A DNA stretch of 36,450 bases from Synechococcaceae cyanobacterium SM2_3_1 (GCA_012030715.1 JAAUUJ010000025.1:1-36450), one strand, 5' to 3'. Counted from the first letter of the stretch, positions 6,001 through 33,886 are shown. Program-made: numbers and translations. The notes: generated by a model from the letters alone, not told the origin.

Positions 6001-7086
6001 TTTGTCGAGGAAGAATCTCCCGATCCAGTTTGGCGCATTGAAACTCTGGCAGCAAATTATGTTGAGAAGATCCGTAAAGTTCAACCTCATGGGCCTTATC
6101 GGATTGGGGGCTACTGTGCAGGGGGATCACTTGCCTACGAAATTGCCCAACAATTTGCTGCTCAAGGAGAACAAACTCTGTTAATGATCTTTGAAAAGAA
6201 CCCTAAACCCAGGGTCAGATTCTCACTTTCAAAGATTAAGTCATTCTTCACTAACCCTGAGCAGAAAGAGTATATGTCCCCACGATTAGCTCGACTCATT
6301 TACATCGTCATTAACAGTCGTGCGTATGTTGATCAGGTTTATATGCGTGTAATCAATGGCAATGCTATGAATGATCGCCAGAAAAAGTTAGGATTGCGGC
6401 AGAAATCTCTTAGAATATTGGAACTCGGATATGGGCTTTGTCTCTACTTTGCTTATGAATTGTCTCTGCGTTTTATGGTTCGTCTCGAGAAACATATTTA
6501 TACTAAAAGTCTGAGATCCAACCCTTCTCAAAATTCCGATCCAGCTTTCAATCCTCGTACTGTATTTTTTCTGCCTCATGAACGAGGTTCATTTTTTTCA
6601 CCCATTCTCAGGAATGTCTCTATTGTTCTTTTAGGTGGGATGCGAATGGAACGTGATTACATTAATCAACAAATTCAAAAGGATAGGAATGAAGATCCAC
6701 AGACCAAAACATCTCTCCTATTATTCCCCAAGAGATTATTTCAGAAGTGGAAGAAAATTTCTGGGTATCGTGCAAGCTACAAAAGCAAGCTAGAGCCCGT
6801 CATGATGGCTCGGTTTCAATATCAGATGAGTCTGGAAGCAAAATATCAATTGAAACCATATCCTGGCAAAATTGCTCTCTTCCTGGCCAAAGAGGAGCCA
6901 GGCTTTCGTCAGATGTATAAACAGGCAGGTGGCTGGATCGGCTATGCCCTTGGAGGTATCGAGATCTACTGTGCCTCTGGGCACCACTATAATTTTCTAA
7001 CCCAAGCCTCCTCTGCACAGGAGGTCGCCTCTCAAATTCGAGATCTGCTTGCCGTGAGAGCAACTAAAGAAGGATCTCAAGAGTAA
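82..7086 (+). CDS. Type I polyketide synthase, fully reducing terminal module (partial at 5' end)
   Basis: This is the C-terminal module of a modular polyketide synthase, which extends a chain with malonyl-CoA, reduces it fully and releases it. Domains by residue from base 82: end of KS (1-190; HGTATPIGDP near 71, KTNVGHLD near 106); AT (about 296-590; GQGSQ, GHSVGEY, and AFHS, which predicts malonyl-CoA); DH (about 660-930; DHRVFEHVVFPG, where Glu replaces the usual Gly, and LLLDACFQ); a degenerate ketoreductase-like structural region (about 975-1190); ER (1215-1525; AAAGGIGQAAIQL); KR (1538-1720; LITGGFGALG, B-type SLDDG, catalytic GNYAAANAF); ACP (DLGLDSLMVIE near 1847); thioesterase (1935-2325; nucleophile in GGYCAGG). 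The ATG at 82 is not the true start, because KS-like sequence continues upstream in other frames. The thioesterase lid is AT-rich. The product is unknown. Confidence 0.93.
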   Translation: MGVGIVLLKPLQQAMRDGDPIRAVIRGSAINNDGSSKAGYTAPSLERQADVIHQAHGAAGVDPDSITYVEAHGTATPIGDPIEVAALTQAFGHVSRKHYCALGSVKTNVGHLDVAAGIVGLIKTVLALEHQQIPPSLHFEQPNPAISFEHSPFYVNTRLQPWDRKTSPRRAGVSSFGIGGTNAHVVLEEAPALPRLTELHEERPIQLLCLSAKTPAALQSLAISYLHYLQQHPHHSLADICHTSHRGRLHQPHRISVWGATTAEMVTQLQAFTQKASTPRVASSTLRKKGAATLAMIFTGQGSQYLGMGRELYQTQPVFQAWLDRCAAILDPLLEHPLLEVLYASEGVSPLNQTAYTQPALFALEYSLAQVWISWGIRPRIVMGHSVGEYVAACLAGVFSLEAGLKLIVQRARLMQSLPSEGGMVAVFADSKIVQEVIAAYPDQVSIAAYNGPESVVISGERQRVESVRKDLEARGIKVTPLEVSQAFHSPLMDPILPEFATFARTVRFASPEIALISNVTGDLAGIDIATPDYWIEHLRQPVQFVRGIQTLQHQGVDIYLEMGPTPVLLGMARACIPDSEALFLPSLRRGSSDWEQMLPSLGQLYGEGMEINWREVDRDCGGHIVADLPTYPFQRQRYWVEPSPKRQQLAPIFPDGGAHPLLGQKLNLPGQIRETIFEITLSPDQPSYLRDHRVFEHVVFPGAGYVEMALAAGNTLLQQEALALEDFSLERPLILASQSATLVQIILTPAQDQSHAIEICSLALTSTATGDPPRTVHARGRVMQTDDLVPDPWTWNQPTQAFDLSTYYKKAHSLGMKFGSEFRVIQAAGIENGVGYAQLQLPVSSGRSDQSYLLHPLLLDACFQLTGLTLATLVEAETTDASLYLPVGIERLHLYRKTSQQLWAKVRPQSLYTPIQKFDIDLADPSGVQVARIEGLSMRRTTPAALQRSLQIRRRDWFYRLFWQRQPQPPVEEEKGAATAAGEYWLIFTSSSERDLLLAQHLTQRGYTWIYVSPGPAFQELSETEYHLNPLDPDHFQQLLRSLLVKDQKLAGILHLWALHAYSQPLDLETLQRVQELGCASVLHLVQALDQMAMPTPVPLWLVTKGAQAITSEREAVQVQQSPLWGLARVIRLEMPHLHGCILDLDPQAVPVEDAEVLVAELFSTPSEDQLAYRQQQRYVARLIRDQAHSQMDPGLLALPPHPFQLRISKPGLLDQLQFYPMQRKAPAAQEVEVQVRAVGLNFRDVLHALGMMPEPNLVPTFGFECAGVITRVGDQIRHLVEGDEVLVVLIGDAFSSYVTPRAEAVIKKPQHCNFTEAATLPLVFLTVYYGLVELAHLKKGEKILIHAAAGGIGQAAIQLAHALGAEVYATASPSKWAFLRSMGVNHIMNSRTLDFAKELRSLTAGAGVDVVLNSLNGEFIPTSLQVLASGGRFVELGKLGIWSAANVQQLRPDIAYFPFDLGDVAQADPALVPRLFAALSPLWQDGTLQPIRHQVYDLVRVREAFRLMQQGRHVGKLVIHWPAIPETELEVNPEASYLITGGFGALGLEAAQWLARKGARHLVLMGRSTPAVDAERIMTELETTGVEVRKLQGDLSQPLEVTPHLEAILQSPWPLRGILHAAGSLDDGILPQQTWDRFRAVMAAKVEGTWLLHSLTQHQPLDFFVCFSSVTSLLGNAGQGNYAAANAFLDGFAHLRQSLDQEALTVNWGPWATAGMAARLSSQLQQRRHQVGMAPILNQEGWPLLEELLMEKAPQMGVIAVDWPKFFAQVPEAAQLPLFRELQPSVNQDPALSSALSLQQLSIASAEQRQLLIRTHVATQIARVMGLSSAEQIDPQRSLFDLGLDSLMVIELRNRLQQTLGQQLRSTLLFDFPTLDSLVNHLSQQIQPATKTKLTTAALSSDRISVEPAASAPSVIAAEPEAPASDATLFPLNPDGDEPPIFLATPIFNNPLIFKQLSQALGPNQPFYVLRFVEEESPDPVWRIETLAANYVEKIRKVQPHGPYRIGGYCAGGSLAYEIAQQFAAQGEQTLLMIFEKNPKPRVRFSLSKIKSFFTNPEQKEYMSPRLARLIYIVINSRAYVDQVYMRVINGNAMNDRQKKLGLRQKSLRILELGYGLCLYFAYELSLRFMVRLEKHIYTKSLRSNPSQNSDPAFNPRTVFFLPHERGSFFSPILRNVSIVLLGGMRMERDYINQQIQKDRNEDPQTKTSLLLFPKRLFQKWKKISGYRASYKSKLEPVMMARFQYQMSLEAKYQLKPYPGKIALFLAKEEPGFRQMYKQAGGWIGYALGGIEIYCASGHHYNFLTQASSAQEVASQIRDLLAVRATKEGSQE

Positions 7087-7094
7087 GTCCAGTT

Positions 7095-8459
7095 TCAGCT
7101 CCCCGACACTGCTTTGAGGATCCCCACTTCAAATTTGCGGTCATCAAACCCGCGGCGCAAGGGGGTATGTCCCAGTCGCACCATCACGGTTTGGCGAGAA
7201 GGAATGATCATGATCCACTGTCCGTAAAATCCAGAAGTGCAATATTCATCCCCAGGGATTCCAGGAATACGGTTTTGCCCTCTCAGCCAAAAATGGGCTC
7301 CGTACTTTCCCTCTGAGGCTGGGGTCGGTGTCGTTGAATACTGAATCCATCCTTCAGGTAAAATCCGTTTGCTTCCCCAAACACCCTCTTGCAGATAGAG
7401 CAGACCAAATCGCGCCCAATCCTGCAGCGTGGCGTACATAAACGAGGAACCCACGAATGTGCCTGAGGGATCGGTTTCAAAAACTGCACTTTCCATTCCT
7501 AGTGGTTGGAAGAGGCGCAAATAGGGGAAATTCCAGTAGGTTTCATCCCCCAGAATCGACCGTATGGCTCGTGAAATGATATTGGTGCTAGCACTGGAGT
7601 ATTTCCAGATTTGGCCTGGGGGGCCTGTCAGGTTTTTTTTAGCTGCAAAGGCGGCGGCATCGGGTTCAAAAAAAAGCATCTGAATGGCATCGGCCCCTGG
7701 GATAGGCGCATAGTACTCCAAAAACTTAAGGCCACTATTCATCCGCAGCAGGTGATCCAGCGTGATGCGATTCCGAGGATCCTGTGGATGCTTCCACTCG
7801 GGCACAGGCAGGGGTGCATACACATCCAGACGTCCGTCCCCCACCAGAATCCCGACCATGGCATTGGTTACACTTTTGGCAAGCGATAATCCCGGCAGTC
7901 GATGATCAGCTGTGATCCCCTCGGCGTATCGTTCCGCCACCACCCATCCCTCCTTAACCACCATGACGGCTCGGGTGCGGCAGGGATACCTGGGATCCTG
8001 TTCTTGAAAAGCCTGATCAACAACTTGATTTAAGAGATTCCAGTTGACAGTAGGACTGTCATGGTGAGCATTGGGGGAAAGTCGCCAGGGGACTTGCTTG
8101 CCTAACCCTTGCTTGGGGAACGACCCGACAATATGACTTGACCGCGGACTAACCGCTGCCGATCCTCTGGAGACCAGCACGCAGCCAAATCCAGGTCTAC
8201 AATATGCCTCTGCCTGGATCAGTCCAAAGCAGGTTGAGGCTGTGACTCGTCGTTGAAAGTGATCGATCTGTGCAGAAACAAAGGAAAACAACGCTAATTC
8301 TTCTGCCTCCAGACGTTCACGTTCCAGTCCTGTCACCAGCAGGCCAGAACAAAGGGTCTTGGCTTTGTAGCGAGTACAGGCTCTGGCAAAGTAAACCATC
8401 ACCCACCCAATCACAGCAACGATAAACCCTAAAATTAGAACGATTGCTGTTTTGATCAT
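7095..8459 (-). CDS. Membrane-anchored serine hydrolase, beta-lactamase class C fold
   Basis: This belongs to the broad COG1680 family of penicillin-binding-protein-like hydrolases (esterases, amide hydrolases, peptidases); the substrate cannot be read from sequence. The catalytic SxxK is visible as LSLAKS (Ser192, Lys195 from the start chosen here). A YSSASTN motif stands where the family has Tyr-x-Asn, and RLGHT near the C-terminus matches the third motif region. An N-terminal hydrophobic stretch (MIKTAIVLILGFIVAVIG) suggests a membrane anchor with an extracytoplasmic enzyme. I chose the ATG at 8459 because the anchor then sits at the N-terminus. Longer in-frame starts would run into the divergent cyclophilin gene. 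The 3' end lies 8 bases from the convergent PKS stop. Confidence 0.85.
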   Translation of the reverse strand: MIKTAIVLILGFIVAVIGWVMVYFARACTRYKAKTLCSGLLVTGLERERLEAEELALFSFVSAQIDHFQRRVTASTCFGLIQAEAYCRPGFGCVLVSRGSAAVSPRSSHIVGSFPKQGLGKQVPWRLSPNAHHDSPTVNWNLLNQVVDQAFQEQDPRYPCRTRAVMVVKEGWVVAERYAEGITADHRLPGLSLAKSVTNAMVGILVGDGRLDVYAPLPVPEWKHPQDPRNRITLDHLLRMNSGLKFLEYYAPIPGADAIQMLFFEPDAAAFAAKKNLTGPPGQIWKYSSASTNIISRAIRSILGDETYWNFPYLRLFQPLGMESAVFETDPSGTFVGSSFMYATLQDWARFGLLYLQEGVWGSKRILPEGWIQYSTTPTPASEGKYGAHFWLRGQNRIPGIPGDEYCTSGFYGQWIMIIPSRQTVMVRLGHTPLRRGFDDRKFEVGILKAVSGS

Positions 8460-8636
8460 CCAGGTCAGATCCAAGGCGACGCTGCTGCAGGGCAAAACCT
8501 GCCTCATCCTACCTGGATCCAGATAGAGTCTCTTTGAGTTCAGGTTCTCCAGTCCTCTAAAATTGGAGCATACCAGGTGGAGATCTGTGAAAATCCTACT
8601 TGGAGCTGGCATGACAAAGGTAATGGAGGGTAACCC

Positions 8637-9746
8637 ATGATCTATCCAAATCCTGCCGTGGGGCGACAAGGTTTTTTCTCTCGTCTGGGGATTCTGCTGT
8701 TGTTCTTGAGTCTGCTGGTGATGGGCTTCTGCATACCTGTCCATGCCTTGCCTCAGGGAGATGCCATCACCGATAGCCGTACCATCTTGCGCCGGACCCT
8801 CCCGATCGGGGAATCGACACTGCAGCATCTGGATGACACCATCATCGGCGTCAAAGATGATCTGAAATACAAACGCTGGTCCACAGCCCGCTCCCACTTG
8901 CGCGATGCTTCCAGCCTGCTAGCCCGCAAAAAAGATCAGCTGCTCAGTGAATTAGCTGCGGGTAACCGTGCATCTGCAGCGGACACGATCGATCACTTGC
9001 AGGAGGATCTGAACCAGATGCAGGAGCAACTCAAGCTCAAGTCAAGAGGCAAGGCCGAGGCCCTGGACTACTTTGAGCTGGCCCTGGCGAAGTTAGAGTC
9101 CCTGGAGTCCAATTGGGTGCAGGATTTTCCTTACTCCATTCCTGAGCAGTACGAGCAGCTTCCCCGTCTCCTGGGGCGGGCACAGGTGGAGATGAAAACC
9201 ACTGCTGGTCGCATGGTCATGACCCTGGATGGGTATAGTGCCCCCATAACGGCTGGAAATTTTGCCGATTTGGTGCAGAAGGGGTTTTACGATGATCTGC
9301 CCATTGATCGGGTGGAAACTTTTTATGTGATTCAAGCGGGCGATCCTCCAGGTGACGCAGACGGCTACATGGATCCCGAAACCGGAAAGAAGCGCACCAT
9401 TCCCCTGGAGATCCGGGTGCAGGGAGAAACTAAGCCCTATTACGGTGATACTCTGGCCAACCTGGGGCTCTGGGATCAAGAACCAGCCCTGCCCTTTTCT
9501 GCTGCTGGTACCGTGGCCATGGCCCGCTACCCTGATGATCCCAACAGTGCTTCCTCACAATTCTTTATCTTTATTGCCGAGCCAGATCTGACCCCTGCCG
9601 GGCTGAATTTAATGGATGGCCGTTTTGCCGCATTTGGCTACATTACGGATGGTCTGGAGGTGATGTACGACATTAAGCCCGAGGATCGGATTCTTTCTGC
9701 CAGGCTGATTTCAGGCCAGGACAACCTGATCCTGCCAACGGCATGA
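8637..9746 (+). CDS. Thylakoid-lumen cyclophilin, TLP40/CYP38 type
   Basis: This is a two-domain lumenal protein. Residues 1-38 form a signal peptide (GILLLFLSLLVMGFC, then VHALPQG). Residues about 45-165 are a charged helical region resembling the PsbQ-like bundle of CYP38. Residues about 180-360 are a cyclophilin fold (FADLVQKGFYDDLPIDRV, VIQAGDPPG, GTVAMARYPDDPNSASSQFF). The family helps assemble and maintain photosystem II in plants. The usual FHRVI..GG signature is altered (IDRVETFYVIQAGD), which fits reports that CYP38-type proteins have little or no isomerase activity. A good ribosome site (GGAGGG) precedes the ATG. The assignment is secure at family level; an exact role in this organism is inferred. 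Confidence 0.9.
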   Translation: MIYPNPAVGRQGFFSRLGILLLFLSLLVMGFCIPVHALPQGDAITDSRTILRRTLPIGESTLQHLDDTIIGVKDDLKYKRWSTARSHLRDASSLLARKKDQLLSELAAGNRASAADTIDHLQEDLNQMQEQLKLKSRGKAEALDYFELALAKLESLESNWVQDFPYSIPEQYEQLPRLLGRAQVEMKTTAGRMVMTLDGYSAPITAGNFADLVQKGFYDDLPIDRVETFYVIQAGDPPGDADGYMDPETGKKRTIPLEIRVQGETKPYYGDTLANLGLWDQEPALPFSAAGTVAMARYPDDPNSASSQFFIFIAEPDLTPAGLNLMDGRFAAFGYITDGLEVMYDIKPEDRILSARLISGQDNLILPTA

Positions 9747-21620: not shown

Positions 21621-23065
21621 TCAAGCTGCGGTCTGGAGAGCCGGAGATGTCGCATTAAGAATTGCATCTGCTGTTAATCGGCCTGAGATCGTTGCTCCCT
21701 CCATGCTGTCAATGTAGTCCTGGGCGGTGTAACTGCCCGCCAGAAAGAAGTTGGGGATCGGGGTCTGCTGTTGAGGGCGGTAGGGATCCATGCCAGGGGC
21801 TTCGCGGTATAGGGAATTGGCCAGCTTGACGACATTGAACCAGGTCATATTCAACTTGCGCGATGAGGGGAAGAGTTGATGCACCTGCTCCAGGACTTTT
21901 TGGGCAATCTCTTCGTTAGCTATGGGAATAAATGGATCTCCGGGGGTCAGTACACATTGCAATAGAGAGCCCTGTCCCTCTTTGTAGTAATCGGCGGGAC
22001 TGGTGAGAGCCAGATCAGCAAAACAGGAGAAATCGGCATCGGCGGTGTAGAGCAGGTTATCGATCCCCACCGCAGTTTTTTGCTCCTTCACTGTCTGTGC
22101 AGATCCTAGTTCCGTCACCCAACCGTCAAACCGCAACTGCACCGTTGCCACAGGAACCGAGTCCAGCTTGTAAATATTGTCGAACTGGGGCCAGTGTCTC
22201 CATGCCTCAGGGATCAGACGCTTGATGCCATCCACCGCTGCTGCGCAGACATACAGATCTGCCGTGATCACCTGATCGTTATTCATCCGCAGCCCAGTCA
22301 CCTGCCGTGATTCATCCTCACTGATCAAGATCTCACTGACTCCCCGACGGGTATGTAGCTGCCCGCCCCGCGCGCAGATGTAGTTGGCGATGGGCTGGAT
22401 TAGATACTGGTCTGGAGATCCCTTGAGCATGCGAAGCACCGAGGCATCGGTCTTACTGGCAAACATCTGAAAGATGGTCAGCATACAGCGAGCTGAAATC
22501 GCCTCTGTGTCAATAAAGCCCAGCGCATAGGCAATCGGGTTCCACAGGCGCTTGAGACTTTGCTGAGATCCCCCGTGGCTACGAAACCAATCGGCGAAAC
22601 TGATTCGATCTAGGGAGCGGATCTGGCGCATCGCCCCTTCAGAATTCACCAACCCTGGCACAATCGGACTGGTTCCGAGCGCGACTGCATTCTGCAACTT
22701 ATCGCGGATCGAGAGTTGAGCAGTGGTGAAGAAGGCTTAAGGCCATGGAAGGGGGCCCCGATAGGAAAGCGAAAATCCAGAGAAGCAAGCTGCCCCCCGC
22801 GATTGACAAATGTATGGGTATGGTCCTTGAGAAGCAGGGCATCAAAGGCACCCACTTTGCGCATCAGGGCGAACAACTTCTCATAATTGCCAAAGAAAAC
22901 ATGCAGGCCCATCTCAATGTGATTGCCCTCAGGATCCTGCCAGCTGCCCACTTTCCCTCCCAGAAAAGGACGAGATTCAAAGATCTCAACCCTGTAACCT
23001 GCATCCACCAGATGCACAGCAGTCACCAGTCCTGCCAGACCTCCCCCAATGATTGCTACACGCAT
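21621..23065 (-). CDS. crtQ: Zeta-carotene desaturase (frameshift)
   Basis: This FAD-dependent desaturase converts zeta-carotene to lycopene (through neurosporene) in plant-type cyanobacterial carotenoid synthesis, at the thylakoid membrane. The dinucleotide-binding motif is [18 protein letters not shown], with [14 protein letters not shown] following. Characteristic family blocks are [38 protein letters not shown] and the C-terminal [19 protein letters not shown]. The frame breaks near 22736: [10 protein letters not shown] should read [19 protein letters not shown], which needs one extra base in AAG(G)CC. Restored length is about 482 residues, normal for the family. The gene is normally essential for coloured carotenoids, so the break is probably a sequencing error. 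GGAG precedes the ATG. Confidence 0.93.
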
Positions 23066-23775: not shown

Positions 23776-24873
23776 ATGGCAACCGAAGCTGCCGCCCGAG
23801 CTGACTTTTCTCAGATCCGTTATGCCCAGTGCTGGGAAGATGCGGATGTTCTGTTGGAGGGGTTGAATATTCAATCGGGGGATCACTGTCTGGCGATTGC
23901 CTCTGCTGGAGATAATGCCCTGGCGATGCTCACCCGTGATCCTGCTCAAGTCTACGCCATCGATCTCAATCCTGCTCAGCTGGCCTGCCTACAGTTGCGA
24001 GTGGCAGCCTACCGAACCCTGAGCTACGAAGAAATGCTGGAATTGATGGGTGCTATTCCCAGTCAACAGCGGCTATCTCACTACCGACGTTGCCGTTCAG
24101 ATCTGGATCCAGCGGTTCAAGATTTTTGGGATCAACGGCCCCAACACATGCAGGCAGGTCTAGGATCTGCGGGAAAGTTTGAACGCTATTTCAACCTGTT
24201 TCGCCACTGGTGTCTGCCCTTGATCCATTCTAAGCAGGTAGTGTTGCAGTTATTACAAGGGGGAGAAGCTGAGGCTCGACATCGCTTTTATTTCAAGACC
24301 TGGAACAGCTGGCGCTGGCGCACTCTTTTTCGGGTGTTCTTTTCTCGGGCTCTCATGGGCAGATTAGGACGAGATCCCGCCTTCTTTAAGTACGTGGAGG
24401 GCAATGTTGCAGACCAGATCTACCAGCGGACTCAGCATGCTCTCACGGCGCTTAACCCAGCCGATAATCCCTATCTGCAGTGGATCCTGACGGGGCGCTA
24501 TCTCTCCGCACTCCCCCTAGCGCTTCGGCCTCAACATTTTCAGACGATTCGCCAAAACCTGGATCGGTTGGAATGGCGACAGAGCAGTCTCGAAGATTTT
24601 TTGCAGACGGAATCTCATCTACGGTTCCAGAGGTTTAATCTCAGTGACATTTTTGAATACATGTCCCCTGCCAATTACCAGCACCTGCTGCAACTGATCC
24701 TGGAGCGGTCGCAGTCAGGGGGAAGACTGGTGTATTGGAATATGCTGGTGCCCCGTAGCCGTCCGGAGAGTCTGGCTCAATCCCTGATTCCCCAGCTTGA
24801 CCTGGCCCAAACTTTGCACCTGCAGGACAAAGCCTTTTTCTATAGCCGCCTGGTGGTTGAGGAAGTGGCATGA
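23776..24873 (+). CDS. DUF3419 / BtaA-like S-adenosylmethionine 3-amino-3-carboxypropyl transferase
   Basis: The BtaA family transfers the 3-amino-3-carboxypropyl group of SAM, in BtaA itself onto diacylglycerol on the way to betaine lipids. Family marks are IRYAQCWEDADVLLEGL, the SAM-binding ASAGDNALAMLTRDPAQVY then AIDLNPAQLACLQLR, FERYFNLFRHWCLPLIHS, and DIFEYMSPANYQHLL. No BtaB-type N-methyltransferase is adjacent, and the partners are isoprenoid-type enzymes, so the acceptor may be a different lipid alcohol; that is inferred. GGAG five bases before the ATG fixes the start. The stop overlaps the next start by four bases (ATGA), coupling it to the polyprenol-kinase-like gene. Confidence 0.85.
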   Translation: MATEAAARADFSQIRYAQCWEDADVLLEGLNIQSGDHCLAIASAGDNALAMLTRDPAQVYAIDLNPAQLACLQLRVAAYRTLSYEEMLELMGAIPSQQRLSHYRRCRSDLDPAVQDFWDQRPQHMQAGLGSAGKFERYFNLFRHWCLPLIHSKQVVLQLLQGGEAEARHRFYFKTWNSWRWRTLFRVFFSRALMGRLGRDPAFFKYVEGNVADQIYQRTQHALTALNPADNPYLQWILTGRYLSALPLALRPQHFQTIRQNLDRLEWRQSSLEDFLQTESHLRFQRFNLSDIFEYMSPANYQHLLQLILERSQSGGRLVYWNMLVPRSRPESLAQSLIPQLDLAQTLHLQDKAFFYSRLVVEEVA

Positions 24874-26206
24874 TCCCAATTTGGGTAAGTATCGGCGGCG
24901 TGATGATCCTTCTCGGGGTGATGATCGGGGGGCTCAAGCTTCTCACTCTCCACCATCAGCTGCACCCGGAACTGACTCGTAAGCTGCTGCATGTGGGTAT
25001 GGGGATGGTGATCCTGTCTTTCCCCTGGGTATTCACGTCTCCCTGGCCTGTGTTTTTGCTGGCGGGTCTATCGACTCTGGCGATGGCAGGGATGCGGCTC
25101 CTGAAATTCTTGCGGGAAGGGGTGGGGAGTGTTCTGACAGGCGTGAATCGCATCGGCTGGGGAGAGGTGTACTACCCCTTGGCGGTGGGGATCCTGTTCT
25201 GGTGGACGGAGGGCGATCCCCTGTTGTTCAGTATTCCCATCCTGATCCTGAGCCTGGCGGATACCGTGGCGGCATTGGTGGGGGTGCGCTATGGTCAGCT
25301 CACTTATTCCTCCTGTGACAGTCACAAGAGTGTGGAGGGATCGGTGGGCTTTTTGATCGTGGCTTTTTTGAGTGTGCATCTGCCCCTACTTTTATTCAGT
25401 CAGGTGGGGCGGGTGGAAACCCTGCTGATTGCCCTGGTGATGCCTTGCTGGTGATGCTATTTGAGGGGGTGGCCTGGCGGGGGCTAGATAATCTGTTTAT
25501 TCCTCTGGGAAGTCATCTGCTGCTCAGCCTTTACCTGGATGAAACCGTGGAGGCCCTGACCTGGCGGCTGCTGGCAACCGTGGTGCTGGTGGTGTTTGCC
25601 CTGGTCTGGCGGGGCCGATCCCGCTTGGATGATGGGGCACTGCTGGGGGTGGCCCTGTTTGGCTATGGGGCCTTGATGCTGGGGGGCTGGCCCTGGCTGA
25701 TTACTCCCCTGAGCTTGTTTCTTTTCCATGTCTGGTTCTGGCCCCGTTCAGCTCCTCAGGTGTCCATCGATACAATTCCCCGGGTTCTGGCCACCGTGAT
25801 CACTGGAGTGTTCTGGCTGGTGATGTACCGCTGGAGCCATGATCCGCTGCTGGTGTTTCCCTATGGCCTCAGCTTTGCGGTTCACCTGGCAACTCTCAAG
25901 ATCTCGGCAATGGCCCGACAGGATCACCGCCACTTTTCACTGCGGATGATGGGACGGGAAATTTATCTGGCCTGGGGTCTGGCTTTTTTTCCTCTGCTCC
26001 TGATCCGGGGTCTGGCCGGAGAGTCCTGGATCCTGTTGCTGCAAGTGGCAGGTGTGGCACTGATTCTGACAGGACTTACAGCGGGACTGTTCTACACACT
26101 GGTGAGCTGGCTTTACCGACCGGATCGCGGGCGGGGATTACCCACCATGAGCAGGTTGCTGCTAGCCACCCTGGGATCTGTGGGCTTGGCTATGGTGCTT
26201 CCCTGA
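24870..26206 (+). CDS. Polyprenol/phytol kinase-like membrane protein with DUF92-like C-terminal half (frameshift)
   Basis: The N-terminal 195 residues are a multi-helix dolichol/phytol kinase domain (COG0170): HPELTRKLLHVGMGMVILS, NRIGWGEVYYPLAVGI, then the CTP-kinase signature ADTVAALVGVRYG followed by SHKSVEGSVGF. The frame breaks near 25439; one added base turns LVMPCW into GDALLVMLFEGVAWRGLDN, typical of the kinase's last helix. The remaining 220 residues hold several further helices. One stretch (DDGALLGVALFGYGALMLGG, then WPWLITPL) looks like the opening of DUF92, the VTE6 phytyl-phosphate kinase family; this is a weak match by eye. If right, one polypeptide would phosphorylate a prenyl alcohol twice. 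Its 3' end overlaps the convergent dikinase by 17 bases. Confidence 0.78.
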
Positions 26207-28872
26207 GCCAGATCTGACCTGTGGCTCCGTCCATGTCCACCCAATCACCGGTTTGCAGATGATCCAGCAGGTGAGGAATGGCCACAATCGCCGGAATTCC
26301 CATTTCTCGGGCCACGATCGCGGAATGGGACAGCAAACTTCCCCGTTGCACCAGGATTCCGGCAGCGGCAGGAAATAAAAGAATCCAGCCCGGATCCGTG
26401 CGTTCCGCCACCAGGATTTCGCCTGCTTGCAGTGTCGCTCCTCGCGGATCCTGATGACTCTGACTGGACCCTGGACCCGACCCGGGCAGCAGCCCAATCC
26501 CTGTAGGGTGTCTGAGGGGGCTCGATCGGTGGTGGAGGGAGTTGAAATCGGGCTGGCAAAGGGATCCAGAGAAACTGTGCCACGGGTTTGAAACCGATCC
26601 GGAGGGGGAGCCTGGAGGTTGAAGCGGGTGAACTCCTCTTGGCGGACAGCGGCCAGGGCCTTCAGATCAATGCAGGTGGTGGATCCGTCTACAAATCCCA
26701 GCGCCTCTTCCACCTCCAGATAAAAGATATCGCGCGGATCGGCTAAGACTCCATCCGTCCAGTAGCGGTGACCCAGCTCCAGAAATAGGCGGCGAACTCG
26801 GCCAAAGAGGCGGGTGCGTTCAAACCGGAGATTCTCCCGTTCCCGGATCCGAGTTCGGGTATTTTGTAACACCCAGGCCAAGATCCACCGCTTGAGAGGA
26901 TGTTTGAGGAGCTGCTGGACCTGATCTTCCGCTTGCTTGCGAATCCGATCTGCGGGAAAGGACGGCTGAGCCTGGATGCGATTGCGCTGGCCTGCCACAG
27001 CGATAGAACGGTAGAGAGGCAGGGGATCATCGTCAAGTGTGGGGGACTCCAGTTTTAACTCCTCCAGGCAGCGATCCCCGAACTGATGCAGATAGGTTTT
27101 GACCTGTGTTTGCAGATCTGGATACTGAATCAGTGCCTTCTGGATCTCGTGAAGATCCGCTTCAGCAAGGGTTTTCAACAGATCTAGATGTTCAGCTGCC
27201 TGGTTTCCCATCCCGTGAATCAGGCGAGCGGGTTCTGTGCTGATCATCCCCCCTTCCCCGCACAGCAACTGGTTGGCCAGGGTTCGGTCTGGATCCTGAC
27301 ACCAGGACTGGGTGAGTTTGCCTAAGACCCCAAAAAAGATCATGGCCAGAAAATCGTTGATCAGGGGAGCATCCCAGTGGGTGAGCAACTGTTGTTCCAG
27401 CTGCCGGTAGGTGGTGACCAGCTGATCACTGCGCATGTCCTTGAGAGGCGGATCGGGGGGCTGGAGTGCTGCCGCCAGTCGTTGATAAAAACCTTCAATT
27501 GTCCGACTCAGGGTGAAATAGTTGCCCGCCAGGCCCAGCAGGGTTCTTCCCAGACGCAACCGATCCCGCCAGGGGTGGGTCTGTACACTGGATTTCAATT
27601 CCATTGCGATCTCAGGAGGTAATCCCTCCTTGAGCCCCATCATCTGTTCCATAAACCGTTGGTTGCTGCCAAAGCCAGGCAAAAGAGCCAGAAGGCGGTA
27701 CCAGTTGTAGAGGTTGTAGTAGACCCGTCCCCGCACCAGCCCGATCATGTGCCGGAACACATTGCCCTGCTCTGCCACCACCGCCTGAGGAACTCCGAGG
27801 AGAAGACAAAACTGCCGATAGACCTCTTCGTAGGCCCGACGGGCAAAGGAAAAGGTAAGAGGGGTGGTGATACCGCTATAGCTTTCGGCAATGTTGGAGT
27901 TGTCCCAGAGGATCGGCAGACCGTCTGGATCCGGGGGCAGGTGGGTAATGGGGCGCGATTGCAGCAGATAGAGATGCCCTCCGGCATAGGCCCATTCAAT
28001 GTCTTGGGGGCAACCTAGAAGGGTGCTGGTTTTTCTGGCCAGTGCAGCCACTGCCCGGATCTGCTCATCCTGCAATGTGAACTGCTGGGCCTGCTTGGGG
28101 GAGAGAGAGACCTGCTGAATGGGGTTCTGCCTAGCAGCCATCGATCCACCGGGCGTCAGGACCTGGGCCAGTACTTTGTCTCCTAAATCGCGCTTCCAGA
28201 TCTGCCCTTCTCGATCCACATGAAACGTATCGCCATCCCCATCCCCGTTCACCAGGCTGGATCCTAACCCCCAGACGGAAGAGACCACGGCCATAGAACG
28301 ACGACCTGTGATGGGATCTGCAGCAAACGCTACCCCAGCCACTTCTGCGGGGATCAGTTCCTGTACGATCACTGCGGGCACGGGAGGACGCGAAGCCAAA
28401 CCCTGTTGTTGTCGATAGAGCAGGAGCTGGTCGCTAAAGCCAGATCGCCAGACCTGCTGTACTGCGGCCATGATCTGAGGGGGGCAGATCCCCAGGACAC
28501 TCTCCAGCTGTCCGGCAAAACTTTGGGTCTGGCCATCTTCATCACAAGCAGAGGATCGCACCGCCAGATAGGTGTCCGCTACCCACCCCATGGCCGTGAT
28601 TGTGGCTTCGATCTCCTGCATCACCATCCGCGAGGGAACCACCTGTGAGACAAGGGTGGCCAGGCGCTGGGGATCCTCTGTTTCCAGAAAGGCCTGTTGC
28701 TGCCATTCGTTCAGACTTTGAAAAAAGCTTCAGGCGTAATCACAAACCAGGGGGGGATGGGCAGATCCCTGGTCTGCAGCTGAGCCAAGGCAGCCGCTTT
28801 ACCCCCGACGGTTTCTCGCTCGTTGGCCTCGTTAGCCAGTTGGATCATTGGGGTTGAAGGAATAACGGTCAT
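26190..28872 (-). CDS. PEP-synthase/rifampicin-phosphotransferase-like dikinase (two frameshifts)
   Basis: The architecture matches ATP-dependent dikinases of the rifampicin phosphotransferase type. The N-terminal third is a PPDK_N ATP-grasp (TVGGKAAALAQL, RSSACDEDGQTQSFAGQLES, VQELIPAEVAGVAFAADPIT, PQDIEWAYAGGHLYLLQSRP). A long helical middle domain (about residues 330-760) would bind the acceptor. The C-terminal swivelling domain carries the phospho-His in RGSLLSHSAIVAREMGIP. There is no C-terminal pyruvate/PEP barrel, so it is unlikely to be a true PEP synthase. Frames break at an A6 run, 28721-28726 (one T missing on the coding strand), and near 26450 (one G missing). Restored length is about 894 residues. 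The start overlaps the UbiA stop by ATGA. The substrate is unknown; a prenyl alcohol is inferred from context. Confidence 0.82.
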
Positions 28873-29772
28873 AACGATCTCCCGATCAGAGGGGCCATAC
28901 CCAGCATGAAATAAAGAACCAGGGTCCAGAGGGCTGAGAGGGATTGCAAATTTTTCCCCTGCTGCGGGGCCTGCCGACTTAGAAATTGTTGCCCTGATGC
29001 CAGCGCCACCAGCAGGAGCAATCCCAGACTGATCACCACAGGCCAGCGGAACTGAATCTGAGCTGCGGTGAAAGAGGCCAGGATCAACGTCAGGAGCAGG
29101 ATTCCCCACCAGATGCCCACCGCCCGCCTGATCCCCCACAGGTGTGAATAGGTTTCCACCCCGTTTTCTTCGTCCACAGGACTGCGGAGCTTGCGTCCGA
29201 TCTCAATCACGATGCCGTTGCTAAAGCTGGTGGCCATCAACCACCCCAGACCTGGGGGAGGGGATCCCTGCTGAGGTAACCAGTCAAAGCCGCTGGCATA
29301 GAGGTGAAGCAGGGGCATGATCACCATATGGCTGAGCAGGTAAACCCCAGGATGAGCCTTTAGCCAGTGGGGAATGCCAAACTCACAGCTCATGGCCCCC
29401 AGATAGATCCAGACCCCCAGCAGCAACAACAGCAGGCGGGGATCCGACCACCAGGCCAGTCCTGCTTCCACCACCAGGCTCAGGACAAATACACCAGCAA
29501 GTTCCGCCAAGCTGATCACGTCCCGGGGAACCGGACGGTAGGGCGAAACTGGCGATCTGCTTCCCGATCTTTAAATTCATCGGCAATGCGCAACTGCAAA
29601 AAAGTAGCAAGCAGCTGACGAAAGCCATCCCCAGGGGCAGCAGCAACAGGTGGGTTTCCCCTCGTAACAATCTGGAATAGCCCACCCCCGCAACACTGAA
29701 GATCAAGATCAGAGGTCCCTGGACCGCCAGGGGAAAACGTTCCTGCAGGTAGATCCAGCCCCGCTTAAGCAT
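28869..29772 (-). CDS. UbiA-superfamily prenyltransferase (two frameshifts)
   Basis: This is a membrane prenyltransferase with about eight to nine hydrophobic helices. The first metal-diphosphate motif, QLRIADEFKDREADRQFRP, appears only after restoring one base in the A6 run at 29598-29603. A second lost base near 29540 joins it to YRPVPRDVISLAELAG. The second Asp/Glu-rich region reads EIGRKLRSPVDEENGVETYS, which differs from the DxxxD of classical UbiA/MenA but still has paired acids. Restored length is about 301 residues. The start overlaps the HMGR stop by eight bases, and the stop overlaps the dikinase start by four, so the three are translationally coupled. It should join a prenyl diphosphate to an acceptor; neither partner is identifiable. 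Confidence 0.82.
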
Positions 29773-31063
29773 GGTGGTGATCCTCAGCTACCGCTTCACC
29801 TTTGCCACGTGCCAGTCGTTGATGGGCCCGGGTAAACTCCCCTGCCGCCATGGCTCCCACTAACGAAATTTCTCCCGCCAGGGCCAGCCCCACAGCTACC
29901 TCTGCCAGTGCATTGGCCTGTCCGCTGCCCACCAAACCCAGGATCTGTAGACAGGCTTGTGGAGTGGGCAAACGGGTGCCTCCCCCCACGGTTCCTAGGA
30001 TCAGATTGGGAAGCGTGAGGCTGACGTAGAGATCCTCTCCCTGTTGTTCAAAGCGGGTGATGCCCACCGCCGACTCTGCCACACAGGCGGCATCCTGACC
30101 GCAGGCAATGTAGAGGGCTGCCAGACCGTTGGCCAGGTGCCCCTGGATCCCGAAACTACCACTCATCACCCCTCCCGTTGCTGCAAATTGGTAGTAGTGC
30201 AGCATCTCTGCCACAGTGCAGTGCAGCCGCTTCTCGATCAGGCTGGCAGGGATCAGGGCTTCGGCAGTGGCTTTACGGCCCCGCACCGATTGAAAGGAAC
30301 TCCAGCTGGCCTTCTTATCCCCAGACATATTGGCCTCCACATACCAGCGCTGAGGGATCTCGGGTGTGTGCTGCAGAATGTATTGACAGGCGGCCTCGGT
30401 GGCAATGGTCACCATGTTCTGACCTGCAGCATCGGCGGTGAAATATTCAAAGATGAGATAGACGTGGTTGCCCTCCAGATGGATCTGCAGGTGGGTGAGC
30501 TTGCCATAGCGAGTGGTGGACTCGGCCACGGCCCGGATCGGTTCCTGGTTCTCGGTGATCCAGTGGATGAACTTGCCCGCCTGCAGCAGGGTGGAAAAGG
30601 CAAAGCCCGGGGTGCGCGTGACTCCTTCTTTGACCACCGCACAGGTGCAGCCCCCGGCTCGGGTCAGGATCTGGGCCCCTCGGGTGTAGGAGGCAACCAG
30701 GGTGGCCTCTGTGGTGGCTAAGGGCACATAGTAGTTGCCCTGGGCAAAGATGCCGTTGATCCGCAGGGGCCCCGCCAGACCAATGGGCATCCGCGCCACA
30801 CCAATAAAATTCTCGATGTTGTGGATATAGCAGGCAGCTTCCTCCAAACTGCGTGGATCTAGAAGCTGTTCCTGAACCTGATCATGCACCGGCAGCAGGT
30901 GCCAGCGTTGTTGGATTGCCGTGGCTGTGATCCTGGAAGGGTGGGCAATGCGAGGAGAAAGTACCTCCTCCGAGGGGAGTAACCGTTGTTCTAGATCCGC
31001 AAGCGGGTGCTGTTGCAATAGTCGTTGTAGATAGGTCTGGGCACGGGAGGCATCAGTTGACAT
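29765..31063 (-). CDS. Hydroxymethylglutaryl-CoA reductase homologue
   Basis: HMG-CoA reductase reduces an acyl-CoA to a primary alcohol with two NAD(P)H (mevalonate in the classical case). Family blocks are NFIGVARMPIGLAGPL (84-100), ATTEATLVAS with catalytic Glu119, DAAGQNMVTIATE (211-223) for NAD(P)H binding, SGDKKASWSSFQ with catalytic Lys250, CGQDAACVAES with Asp324, GTVGGGTRLPTPQA, and a C-terminal THR-like TRAHQRLARG with His414. Spacing fits class I enzymes. All four catalytic residues are therefore present in a 432-residue intact protein with no membrane anchor. Deviations (DAAGQNM for DAMGMNM, GQDAACV for GQDPAQN) leave room for a different acyl-CoA substrate. No other mevalonate-pathway gene lies in the window. 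Confidence 0.92.
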   Translation of the reverse strand: MSTDASRAQTYLQRLLQQHPLADLEQRLLPSEEVLSPRIAHPSRITATAIQQRWHLLPVHDQVQEQLLDPRSLEEAACYIHNIENFIGVARMPIGLAGPLRINGIFAQGNYYVPLATTEATLVASYTRGAQILTRAGGCTCAVVKEGVTRTPGFAFSTLLQAGKFIHWITENQEPIRAVAESTTRYGKLTHLQIHLEGNHVYLIFEYFTADAAGQNMVTIATEAACQYILQHTPEIPQRWYVEANMSGDKKASWSSFQSVRGRKATAEALIPASLIEKRLHCTVAEMLHYYQFAATGGVMSGSFGIQGHLANGLAALYIACGQDAACVAESAVGITRFEQQGEDLYVSLTLPNLILGTVGGGTRLPTPQACLQILGLVGSGQANALAEVAVGLALAGEISLVGAMAAGEFTRAHQRLARGKGEAVAEDHHHA

Positions 31064-31087
31064 GGGTGGGCTCCTTTTCAGGCATAG

Positions 31088-32674
31088 TTAAGAAAGATGG
31101 TGGGTGAGCCACTGCCGCAGCGCGGGGTAGTCGATTTTGCCGTTGTGGCGACGATCCACAGGAATGTGGGGTAAGAATAGGATCCGGTCCAGGTGAGCCC
31201 AGCTCAAGGCCTCCTGTAGCCGTGATTGCAAATGGCTTCTGGATGGTGAGGGATCGGCCTCCACCACCAGCAGTCGCTGATCTCGAAACTGGATCAGGGC
31301 CGTTCTGCGGATTCCCTGGATCTGGGTGGCAGCACTTTCGACCGCGAAGGGATAGAGCGTTCCTTGTGAATCCACCACCCTGGCCCGATCCCGCCCCAGC
31401 AACCAGAGGCGTCCGCCCTCATCCAGATAGCCTGCATCGCCGGTGCGGTGCCAGATCTGTTCTCCCACTCGCAACTTGTGCTCCTGATTCCCCTGGCCAT
31501 CCAGGTATCCCTTCAGGACATGTTCCCCGATCACGACGATCTCTCCTGGCTGTTGCGGGGAAAGACAGAGGCTTTCAAAGGAGGCTGGTGTGAAGGCAGG
31601 GAGAGGCTGATCCCCCTGGCTGGCGAGGATGCGCACCTGGATCTGGGGGATGGGATATCCGGTTAATAAGCCCTGACCGCACACCATCCGGTCGAGATCC
31701 TCTGGGGTGATCTGGGAGTAACGCATCGGGGCAATGGGTTCTGCCTCTGTAGAACCGTAGAGGGCGGTGATCTCTGCCTGGGGGGCTATGCTGGCTAACT
31801 GCTGCAGCAGACGGGGAAAGACAGGGGTACCTCCGGTGGTGATCCGCTGCAAACTCTCAAGTCGCAGATCCCTCTCCTGGCAGAAGGGGATTATCCGTTC
31901 CCAAAAAGCGGGAGGAGCGGCTGCCCGAGTGGGGGGATAACGCTGGATCTGAGCTATCACCGCAGCGGGTTTAATGTGACCGGGGCGACGTAGATCCAGA
32001 TTCGGAATCAGGGTGGTAACGCCCGCCGCCAGATTGGCCAGAGCAAACATCGGCAGGGTGCAGAGATCCCGATCGTCAGGTTGCAGCTGGATTGCCGCTT
32101 TCAGGGCTCTGTATTGGGCCAGAAGCAATTCATGAGTGCGGATCGCCCCTTTGGGAGCGCCTGTACTCCCGCTGGTGAAGGTGAGCAGGGCCGGAGATTC
32201 TCCCTCCACTTTCTGGATCCGATCCCAGGGCAGCAGGTGCCAGGCGCTGGAGAGTGGAGTGGTTCCTGGCAACCCAGGTCCGATCCCGATCGCATGGGGA
32301 ATAGCTCGCAACCTGGCATGGCGCAGGCGCAGCAAGTGAGCCTTCAGGGAGCCCACAAAGGCTACGGGTTGGATCCGCTGACAGCAAGCCGCAATCTGAT
32401 CTGCTGGAGCAGCAGGATCCATGAAGGTGGCCACCAGCCCCAGGCGGAAACAGGCCAGCAGCACGATGTAGAGGGAAGTGGACATGGCCTGAAAGATCAA
32501 CACCTTCTCCCCTGGCTGGAGCCCCAGATTTTGAAATAGAGCTGCAACCTGAGCAGATTTCTGATTCAGATCCGCAAAGCTGAGCGTGCGCTGCTGCCCC
32601 CACCGGATCTCCTCCAGAGCAGGATGGGATCCGTGCTGGTGGGCCTGTTCAACCAGCAGTTGGGCGATATTCAC
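31088..32674 (-). CDS. AMP-forming acyl/aryl ligase, OleC-like
   Basis: This ANL-superfamily enzyme of about 528 residues activates a carboxylate as acyl-AMP, normally then to acyl-CoA. Core motifs are LLTFTSGSTGAPKGAIRTHE (A3), ALYGSTEAEPIAPM (A5), HRTGDAGYLDEGGRLWLLGR (A7-A8) and RRHNGKIDYPAL with the A10 lysine. YGSTE..PIA and LRRPGHIKP resemble OleC of olefin biosynthesis, a beta-lactone-forming relative, from memory only. I start it at GTG 32674 (NIAQLLVEQAHQHG), which overlaps the stop of the upstream GNAT-like gene as GTGA. A frame shift near 32750 makes both genes read as one 903-residue frame, which I do not accept as real. It lies 24 bases before the HMGR start, so its thioester could feed HMGR. 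Confidence 0.88.
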   Translation of the reverse strand: MNIAQLLVEQAHQHGSHPALEEIRWGQQRTLSFADLNQKSAQVAALFQNLGLQPGEKVLIFQAMSTSLYIVLLACFRLGLVATFMDPAAPADQIAACCQRIQPVAFVGSLKAHLLRLRHARLRAIPHAIGIGPGLPGTTPLSSAWHLLPWDRIQKVEGESPALLTFTSGSTGAPKGAIRTHELLLAQYRALKAAIQLQPDDRDLCTLPMFALANLAAGVTTLIPNLDLRRPGHIKPAAVIAQIQRYPPTRAAAPPAFWERIIPFCQERDLRLESLQRITTGGTPVFPRLLQQLASIAPQAEITALYGSTEAEPIAPMRYSQITPEDLDRMVCGQGLLTGYPIPQIQVRILASQGDQPLPAFTPASFESLCLSPQQPGEIVVIGEHVLKGYLDGQGNQEHKLRVGEQIWHRTGDAGYLDEGGRLWLLGRDRARVVDSQGTLYPFAVESAATQIQGIRRTALIQFRDQRLLVVEADPSPSRSHLQSRLQEALSWAHLDRILFLPHIPVDRRHNGKIDYPALRQWLTHHLS

Positions 32675-33667
32675 TGGCCTGCCTCCGCGAGATAGAGGGT
32701 GTAACGACGAAAGGGACGCGCCTGTCCCCCCAGAACGTTGCGGAGGCATTTTTTCGTGCATGAGGGCATGGATTGCCCGCTTCAGTCCCAATTGCCTGGT
32801 GGTCTGATGGCAGCGCTGTACCAGCAGATTGCCGAGTCCGGCATAGGAGCGGCCCGGTTTGGTGGCTACGGTTTTGATGACGACAGTATCGAGAGGTTCG
32901 CCCCGCTGAGCTTGAGTCAGATCCGGCAGGGCAAAGATAAAACCCAACAGGTTTTCAGCGTGGTAGGCCAGCTGTACTAAACGGGGTTCAAGAAAGTTGG
33001 CAACAGGTTGATAGAGACTGAGGAATCGTTCCCTCTCCAGCGGCGTGTAGAGAAAATTACCCGCAAAGGCTTGCAGGCAGAGTTTATGAATATCCTCTAG
33101 ATAATCAGACAGGGATCGACCCACCAGATTAAAGATTTCCACCCCCAGTTTGTCCAGGCGTTGCTCGACAGCAAGCAGGCGAGGATCAACAGTTTCTAGA
33201 TCTTCCACAAGAGAAGATAGGTAATGGGTTAGCGGTTGAAAGCCAGCCTGCAGGAAATGCTGTGGCCAATCGGCAGGGTGATCCGGTTCCAGTAAAAAGG
33301 GAGGGTGATCTCCTGGCTCTGTAATCAGTCGATAGCGAAACCAGGTGGATCCATCCATGGGTCCTACGACCGCTGAACACCCATGTTCCCCAAGCAGATG
33401 ACAGGCATTTTTCAACAGTTCAGATCCGGCCTCTGTTTCAAGAGCCGCATAATGTCCTAGGACACCAAGGGTTTGTTCCTGCCAGATTAATCCTGTCGAG
33501 GCCCAAAAGGAACAACGGGCTAGTGGCCGATCGTCTTGAATCAAGATCAGGTGACTGGTGGGGGCATGCAGATCAAATTCTGTCTTTGAAAGCAGGGGTA
33601 GGTTCTGTTCATGACACCTGAAAAGATTGGGGATCTGGTCAAGAGTCTGGATCTGGAGGATTGACAC
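32671..33667 (-). CDS. GNAT-like acetyltransferase-type protein (frameshift near C-terminus)
   Basis: This protein of about 331 residues carries a GNAT-like C-terminal part: VVIKTVATKPGRSYAGLG, then NLLVQRCHQTTRQLGLKRAI, resembling the acyl-CoA-binding loop and following helix. The N-terminal part (CRFWAS-like beta strands, GCSAVVGPMDGSTWFRYRLI) is typical of bacterial proteins annotated as GNAT-like hypotheticals. After HALMHEK at the T6 run 32749-32754, the correct frame continues CLRNVLGGQARPFRRYTLYL and ends AEAGQ at the TGA overlapping the ligase GTG. I chose GTG 33667 (VSILQIQTLDQIP) because GGAG lies eight bases upstream; ATG 33685 or 33799 are alternatives. It appears to be the first gene of the leftward operon. 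Confidence 0.75.
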
Positions 33668-33675
33668 AGGTCTCG

Positions 33676-33679
33676 CTCC
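33676..33679 (-). promoter_or_regulatory. Shine-Dalgarno site supporting the GTG start of the GNAT-like gene
   Basis: On the minus strand GGAG lies eight bases before GTG 33665-33667. No comparable site precedes the in-frame ATGs at 33685 or 33799. Confidence 0.55.
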
Positions 33680-33886
33680 GCACATCGGAATAGTTCTACA
33701 GTAGGTCTGATCCTCCGTGCGATTCTGGACCACTTGTGCCAGTCTTTGAACTGCCCACCAAAAAAGGGGCGGATCGTATGAATGCACTCCCAGCTCCACA
33801 AGCAGAGTTTCAGGAGTTAGGAATCACTACCTCCAGTTCTATCGACAGCTAGGTTCTAGCGGCAGAGAGCGAATTCTGGAACTGGC

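Follow-up and report, generated by a model that had tools for sequence, protein, structure and literature searches.

A seven-gene locus in two convergent arms

The window analyzed here is a 36,450-nucleotide stretch of DNA from the Synechococcaceae cyanobacterium SM2_3_1 (GCA_012030715.1, JAAUUJ010000025.1:1-36450), corresponding to contig C78 of a 4.44-Mb draft genome with a completeness of 91%. It contains a locus of seven genes in two arms, which we examined as a candidate lipid-biosynthesis pathway. On the plus strand lie a DUF3419 (BtaA-like) homologue of S-adenosylmethionine (SAM) 3-amino-3-carboxypropyl transferases (23776 to 24873; PF11899, 249 bits against a cut-off of 28.2) and a COG0170/phytol-kinase-type membrane kinase with a C-terminal membrane extension (24870 to 26206), whose profile match is spread over two frames. 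This pair converges on a minus-strand arm that encodes, in order of transcription, a tandem GNAT acyltransferase (32671 to 33685, with an uncertain start between 33667 and 33799); an ANL acyl-adenylate/CoA ligase of the PRK09274/OleC-like group with a GTG start (31088 to 32674; PF00501, 187 bits); an intact class I HMG-CoA-reductase-like (HMGR-like) enzyme that keeps the catalytic Glu, Lys, Asp, and His (29765 to 31063); a UbiA-family membrane prenyltransferase with the motifs DEFKD...D and EIGRK.R..DEE.GV.TYS (28869 to 29772); and a dikinase with the architecture of rifampin phosphotransferase, consisting of a PPDK_N ATP-grasp domain, a long middle domain, and a C-terminal phosphohistidine domain (26190 to 28872).

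The genes are tightly packed. The DUF3419 stop (24873) and the kinase ATG (24870) share an ATGA overlap, and the two arms overlap by exactly 17 bases where the strands meet (26190 to 26206). On the minus strand, 4-base overlaps join the GNAT stop (32671) to the ligase GTG (32674) and the UbiA stop (28869) to the dikinase ATG (28872), an 8-base overlap joins the HMGR-like stop (29765) to the UbiA ATG (29772), and a 24-base gap separates the ligase stop (31088) from the HMGR-like ATG (31063). A preliminary description of the locus, made from the sequence alone, had placed all of the families that it named correctly and had reported the ATGA, the left-arm overlaps of 4 to 8 bases, and the 17-base overlap of the arms just as we measured them. 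Its inventory overlooked the tandem GNAT, which is hidden in a 903-amino-acid "ligase" open reading frame. We considered a GNAT-ligase fusion and rejected it, since the GNAT tail (RRYTLY) and its stop are found in another frame, overlapping the ligase start. A frameshift makes the tandem GNAT and the ligase, which are separate genes, appear as a single 903-amino-acid frame.

Comparison with relatives revealed at least six single-base frameshifts in the locus: two in UbiA (near 29598 and 29540), two in the dikinase (near 28721 and 26430 to 26450), one in the kinase (near 25442, where the profile matches in two frames meet), and one close to the end of the GNAT gene (near 32726 to 32749). Several sit at runs of six T or A, while the remaining ones have no long run. 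Because of these six-base homopolymers, we consider the frameshifts likelier, although not proven, to be base-level assembly errors. The flavin amine-oxidase (carotenoid desaturase-like) gene at 21621 to 23065 on the minus strand also looks split, into frames at 21621 to 22697 and 22646 to 23065, which favors assembly error over decay of the locus. Pseudogene decay, suggested by six frameshifts in 10 kb, is disfavored given the homopolymers and the intact HMGR-like gene in the middle of the locus.

Conservation across phyla and co-occurrence without linkage

A genome scan with the single HMGR-like protein as the query returned no matches, and the scan was therefore redone with a DUF3419 alignment. 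Among ~85,000 species genomes, this identified 381 relatives, 80 of which were kept for locus analysis. These 80 loci come from 16 phyla (named as in the records); genes neighboring DUF3419 were detected by tblastn, and many of the loci end at contig ends. The dikinase was found beside DUF3419 in 75/80 loci, the kinase in 68/80, the GNAT in 63/80, UbiA in 62/80, the ligase in 60/80, and the HMGR-like gene in 52/80. All seven genes are held together in 43/80 related loci, a grouping that exceeds chance, and they then always share one strand. Two cyclic orders account for all of these loci: HMGR-UbiA-dikinase-DUF3419-kinase-GNAT-ligase is the first, and GNAT-ligase-HMGR-UbiA-dikinase-DUF3419-kinase is the second. 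The window matches the second, except that its DUF3419-kinase pair is inverted. The preliminary description had weighed its single-pathway idea against a neighborhood unique to this contig or arms that never co-occur; instead, both arms are found together across the 16 phyla, usually as one same-strand operon. No eighth neighbor was conserved across the loci, where only shadow open reading frames and broad families turned up, and we found no transporter, regulator, or resistance gene conserved beside the seven.

Some operons are smaller. Small genomes from a different class of Cyanobacteriota, probably the Melainabacteria, contain six-gene operons that lack the HMGR-like gene and whose genes overlap or abut. 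A 137-kb plasmid of Roseinatronobacter sp. S2 (L152, NZ_CP121116.1) likewise carries a complete HMGR-free six-gene operon at 523 to 8507, with all junctions overlapping or abutting. Roseinatronobacter sp. S2 is a cultured alphaproteobacterium, and thus a convenient experimental host, in which the operon lies near lipopolysaccharide-type glycosyltransferase genes. Methylomonas sp. SURF-1, Alkalilimnicola ehrlichii AK92, and Desulfobulbus rhabdoformis are further carriers. Five loci from Verrucomicrobiota (L096, L100, L113, L122, and L131) have a divergent second dikinase-like gene (23 to 30% identity) directly upstream of DUF3419, which makes theirs a variant operon; in L100 and L113, the normal UbiA-dikinase pair lies further upstream.

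Correlations between the pairwise distances of the seven families are weak to moderate (Spearman coefficients of 0.12 to 0.65). Phyla are intermixed in the DUF3419 tree, which, with weak support, places the window apart from the cyanobacterial clade. Given this mixing of phyla, the operon has likely spread horizontally, although this is not proven.

The strongest sign of a single pathway is co-occurrence without linkage. We compared gene presence across 376 to 386 Cyanobacteriota genomes, where Fisher P values for co-occurrence ranged from 1e-11 to 1e-33, without regard to shared ancestry. UbiA of the operon type is present in 22 genomes, and a close dikinase is present in 21, all of them within those 22 (P = 1.7e-33). 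A high-scoring GNAT was found in 17 genomes, all 17 of which also have UbiA; DUF3419 was found in 27, of which 20 are shared with UbiA; and the HMGR-like gene was found in 12, of which 11 are shared with UbiA and all 12 with any dikinase match. The operon genes are dispersed in three of the genomes, namely, G011 (C1), G008 (C7/C37/C71), and G213 (C30/C150/C138/C68), each of which has all six searched families. In G011, where the genome-wide search covered these six families, the genes lie at four separate places (HMGR; UbiA-dikinase-DUF3419; kinase; GNAT). This scattering is the natural dispersal of an operon, and the co-occurrence of unlinked arms upholds the single-pathway idea of the preliminary description. 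A second GNAT family of ~390 amino acids, scoring ~80 to 115 bits against the operon GNAT, is common in cyanobacteria without the operon (G002, G027, G033, G066, G298, and about 25 other Cyanobacteriota genomes).

Elsewhere in the window, positions 82 to 7086 on the plus strand encode a type I polyketide synthase module that begins before the start of the open reading frame (ketoacyl-synthase C terminus, AT, DH, ER, KR, ACP, and thioesterase domains). It is followed by a beta-lactamase-fold protein on the minus strand (7095 to 8897).

Family assignments of the seven enzymes

By sequence, the HMGR-like protein belongs to the class I HMGRs, but it scores 329.9 bits against the curated model TIGR00533, below the cut-off of 441.8. 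Among 59 operon-type copies (counted without those of G029 and G053), E559, R590, K691, K692, and H866 are kept in 59/59 and D767 is kept in 58/59. The position of Ser684, a serine in the human and archaeal enzymes in our alignment, is occupied by Glu in 54/59 copies, including that in the window, and by Asp in the other 5/59. In the human HMGR structures of Istvan and Deisenhofer, Ser684 and Lys735 reportedly touch the HMG moiety. The equivalent of Lys735 depends on the alignment: it is hydrophobic in one, while a one-residue shift makes it Arg in 42/59 copies and Gln in the window. A clear loss of Lys735 was withdrawn as a claim because it hinges on that shift. HMG-CoA synthase was not found in 19/20 carrier genomes, the other giving one weak match, whereas IspH of the methylerythritol phosphate route is present in 15/20. 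A role in the mevalonate pathway is therefore unlikely, and the HMGR-like enzyme is probably not a mevalonate enzyme; the economical reading is that it would reduce a thioester other than HMG-CoA. The acyl-CoA reduction first ascribed to this enzyme thus gains support as far as a non-HMG-CoA substrate is concerned, from the changed Ser684 and the absence of HMG-CoA synthase, but not as an obligatory step. Five genomes from other classes of the phylum (G007, G021, G029, G041, and G053) contain an HMGR but neither HMG-CoA synthase nor detectable IspH; they may have another isoprenoid source or be incomplete bins.

DUF3419 is 58 to 63% identical to many operon copies from other phyla, and its relatives are membrane-lipid enzymes. 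UbiA matches PF01040 in 19/19 copies and has two acidic motifs, DEFKD...D and DEE. Its closest solved relatives are chlorophyll synthase and digeranylgeranylglyceryl phosphate (DGGGP) synthase, both of which move a prenyl group onto oxygen, and its closest prenyltransferase models are PRK13592 and PRK12884; its match to EboC is weak. Judged by its sequence, UbiA falls nearest the O-prenylating branch, in keeping with the prenyl transfer proposed for it at the outset.

In 19/19 copies, the dikinase comprises PPDK_N, a unique middle domain, and a PEP-utilizers domain, with no pyruvate-binding C-terminal domain. Its nearest solved relatives are PDB entries 5fbs (the best) and 5hv1, deposited as PEP synthase, which we take to be rifampin phosphotransferase (RPH); against the NCBIfam RPH models it scores far under the cut-off. 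The RPH architecture without a pyruvate-binding domain makes a hydrophobic alcohol the probable substrate to be phosphorylated. The N-terminal 217 residues of the membrane kinase are homologous to a protein of ~240 amino acids present in 6/6 cyanobacteria searched, beyond which the kinase has an extra membrane half. In alignments it shows the motifs E..RK..H, D..AAL.G..G, K..EGS, and DN..P, from which we presume the COG0170/phytol-kinase name; it is a putative lipid-alcohol kinase. The ligase scores 407 bits against PRK09274 (cut-off, 478), with OleC more distant. The GNAT matches PF00583 in 20/20 copies, and its structural model is a confident tandem-GNAT fold (pLDDT, 89.6) whose Foldseek neighbors in the PDB are tandem GNATs, mycothiol synthase, and FemX.

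A proposed lipid pathway and its alternatives

From the families, linkage, co-occurrence, kept catalytic residues, and missing mevalonate route observed above, the seven genes almost certainly act in one pathway, the product of which is probably a lipid. We estimate a probability of roughly 0.6 that this product is an amino-headed, ether-type lipid made by a self-contained, horizontally mobile pathway. In the scheme that we propose, the HMGR-like enzyme would reduce a non-HMG-CoA acyl thioester to an alcohol, and the phytol-kinase-type membrane kinase and the dikinase would place one or two phosphates on the lipid alcohol. UbiA would then move the lipid chain from the diphosphate onto oxygen, forming an ether (or ester) bond, and DUF3419 would attach a 3-amino-3-carboxypropyl (homoserine-like) group from SAM. 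Finally, the ANL ligase would activate a carboxylic acid for the tandem GNAT to pass to an amine, in the simplest case that installed by DUF3419. The order of these steps is doubtful. A bolder version, which we consider improbable, extends prenyltransferase chemistry to fatty chains: a 2-enoyl thioester would be converted to an allylic fatty alcohol and its allylic diphosphate, and UbiA would make from it an ether lipid with an N-acylated homoserine head.

Several points weigh against an amino-headed ether-type lipid. DUF3419 is only 24 to 28% identical to rhizobial homologues. The kinase owes its family assignment to motifs and to its homology with an uncharacterized cyanobacterial paralogue; it has no clear match to a Pfam or NCBIfam model, and a fold search against solved structures gave none. 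With Arg or Gln at position 735 after a one-residue shift, the HMGR-like enzyme may still be compatible with an acidic substrate. The HMGR-like gene is also missing from some complete-looking operons, and reduction is therefore optional or otherwise supplied rather than obligatory everywhere. More generally, we infer the substrates of all seven enzymes as well as the step order and the membrane-lipid nature of the product, which could instead be a secreted small molecule. Of the pathway first envisaged for this locus, the unity is thus supported, while its acid, alcohol, and acceptor chemistry is putative.

Such a secreted product, a specialized lipid-like metabolite rather than a bulk membrane lipid, is at odds with the membrane lipids made by DUF3419 relatives and with the lack of a conserved transporter, regulator, or resistance gene adjoining the seven genes. 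It would fit the patchy spread over phyla, the carriage on a plasmid, and the phylum-mixing tree, and a similarly widespread UbiA-containing operon, ebo, is tied to scytonemin (PMC5133447, PMC6282210). We regard this alternative as unlikely.

We are more doubtful still of a pseudo-ceramide. Here, DUF3419 would place homoserine on a UbiA-made lipid alcohol, the ligase would activate the carboxylate, the HMGR-like enzyme, whose Glu/Asp would hold the amine, would reduce the thioester, and the GNAT would N-acylate that amine, giving HOCH2-CH(NH-acyl)-CH2-CH2-O-lipid, which resembles a sphingolipid. An acidic residue in place of Ser684 in 59/59 copies fits with a positively charged group close to the thioester, the GNAT, ligase, and HMGR-like genes are adjacent in one of the two gene orders, and the tandem GNAT fold is also consistent with such a product. 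However, this scheme spends the sole ligase on reduction and leaves the acyl supply of the GNAT to general metabolism, the ligase and GNAT are retained in HMGR-free operons, and its substrates are hypothetical.

Prenol salvage is quite improbable. The kinase and dikinase would rephosphorylate a free prenol for UbiA to attach to an acceptor, either an aromatic or a tetrapyrrole, much as phytol is recycled into tocopherol or chlorophyll, and the homology of the kinase to phytol-kinase-type proteins and of UbiA to chlorophyll synthase agrees with this. Yet the operon is present in many largely nonphotosynthetic phyla, its carriers already have normal polyprenyl diphosphate synthases, and DUF3419, the GNAT, and the ligase are left unexplained. 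An ordinary mevalonate HMGR beside unrelated lipid genes, with independent arms, is largely refuted despite its full set of class I catalytic residues: the carriers mostly lack HMG-CoA synthase and have IspH, the HMGR-like gene keeps company with a dikinase in all 12 Cyanobacteriota genomes that have it, and both arms form one operon in other genomes.

Each of the known systems closest to an amino-headed ether-lipid pathway shares part of its logic. BtaA moves a 3-amino-3-carboxypropyl group from SAM to diacylglycerol, and BtaA/BtaB make the betaine lipid DGTS in, for example, Rhodobacter and Sinorhizobium. DUF3419 is homologous to BtaA, but no BtaB N-methyltransferase adjoins it here, and that system contains nothing equivalent to the UbiA, dikinase, kinase, GNAT, ligase, or HMGR-like enzymes. 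UbiA belongs with the O-prenyl-bond (DGGGP synthase) branch of archaeal ether-lipid synthesis, but GGGP synthase, G1P dehydrogenase, and CDP-archaeol synthase are not among its conserved neighbors. Phytol or prenol salvage by VTE5, VTE6, and a UbiA prenyltransferase also pairs a lipid-alcohol kinase with UbiA, whereas the operon has a dikinase as its second kinase, nonphotosynthetic hosts, and extra acyl, amino, and reductase steps. With RPH (5fbs, 5hv1) the dikinase shares the order of ATP-grasp, substrate, and phosphohistidine domains, but it is a distinct, operon-bound family with a presumed lipid-alcohol substrate. The ebo operon is likewise widespread and horizontally moved, with a UbiA-like gene and a product without assignment (PMC5133447), but it consists of other genes; the eboA-F set was not found here, and the paper mentions neither DUF3419 nor HMG. 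In the open literature, which excludes most subscription journals, we found no description of the gene set and, given this limited search, the pathway appears to be undescribed.

Since it is conserved in no fewer than 16 phyla, which range from cyanobacteria to Verrucomicrobiota and Gemmatimonadota, the operon almost certainly yields a useful product, and it hints at a lipid class absent from present lipidomes. It would account for class I HMG-CoA reductases in bacteria without a mevalonate pathway and would give a lipid role to a type of dikinase known from rifampin resistance. If the fatty-chain prenyltransferase route were true, it would be a new way to ether lipids across those same phyla. 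Cultured carriers exist, making direct testing possible.

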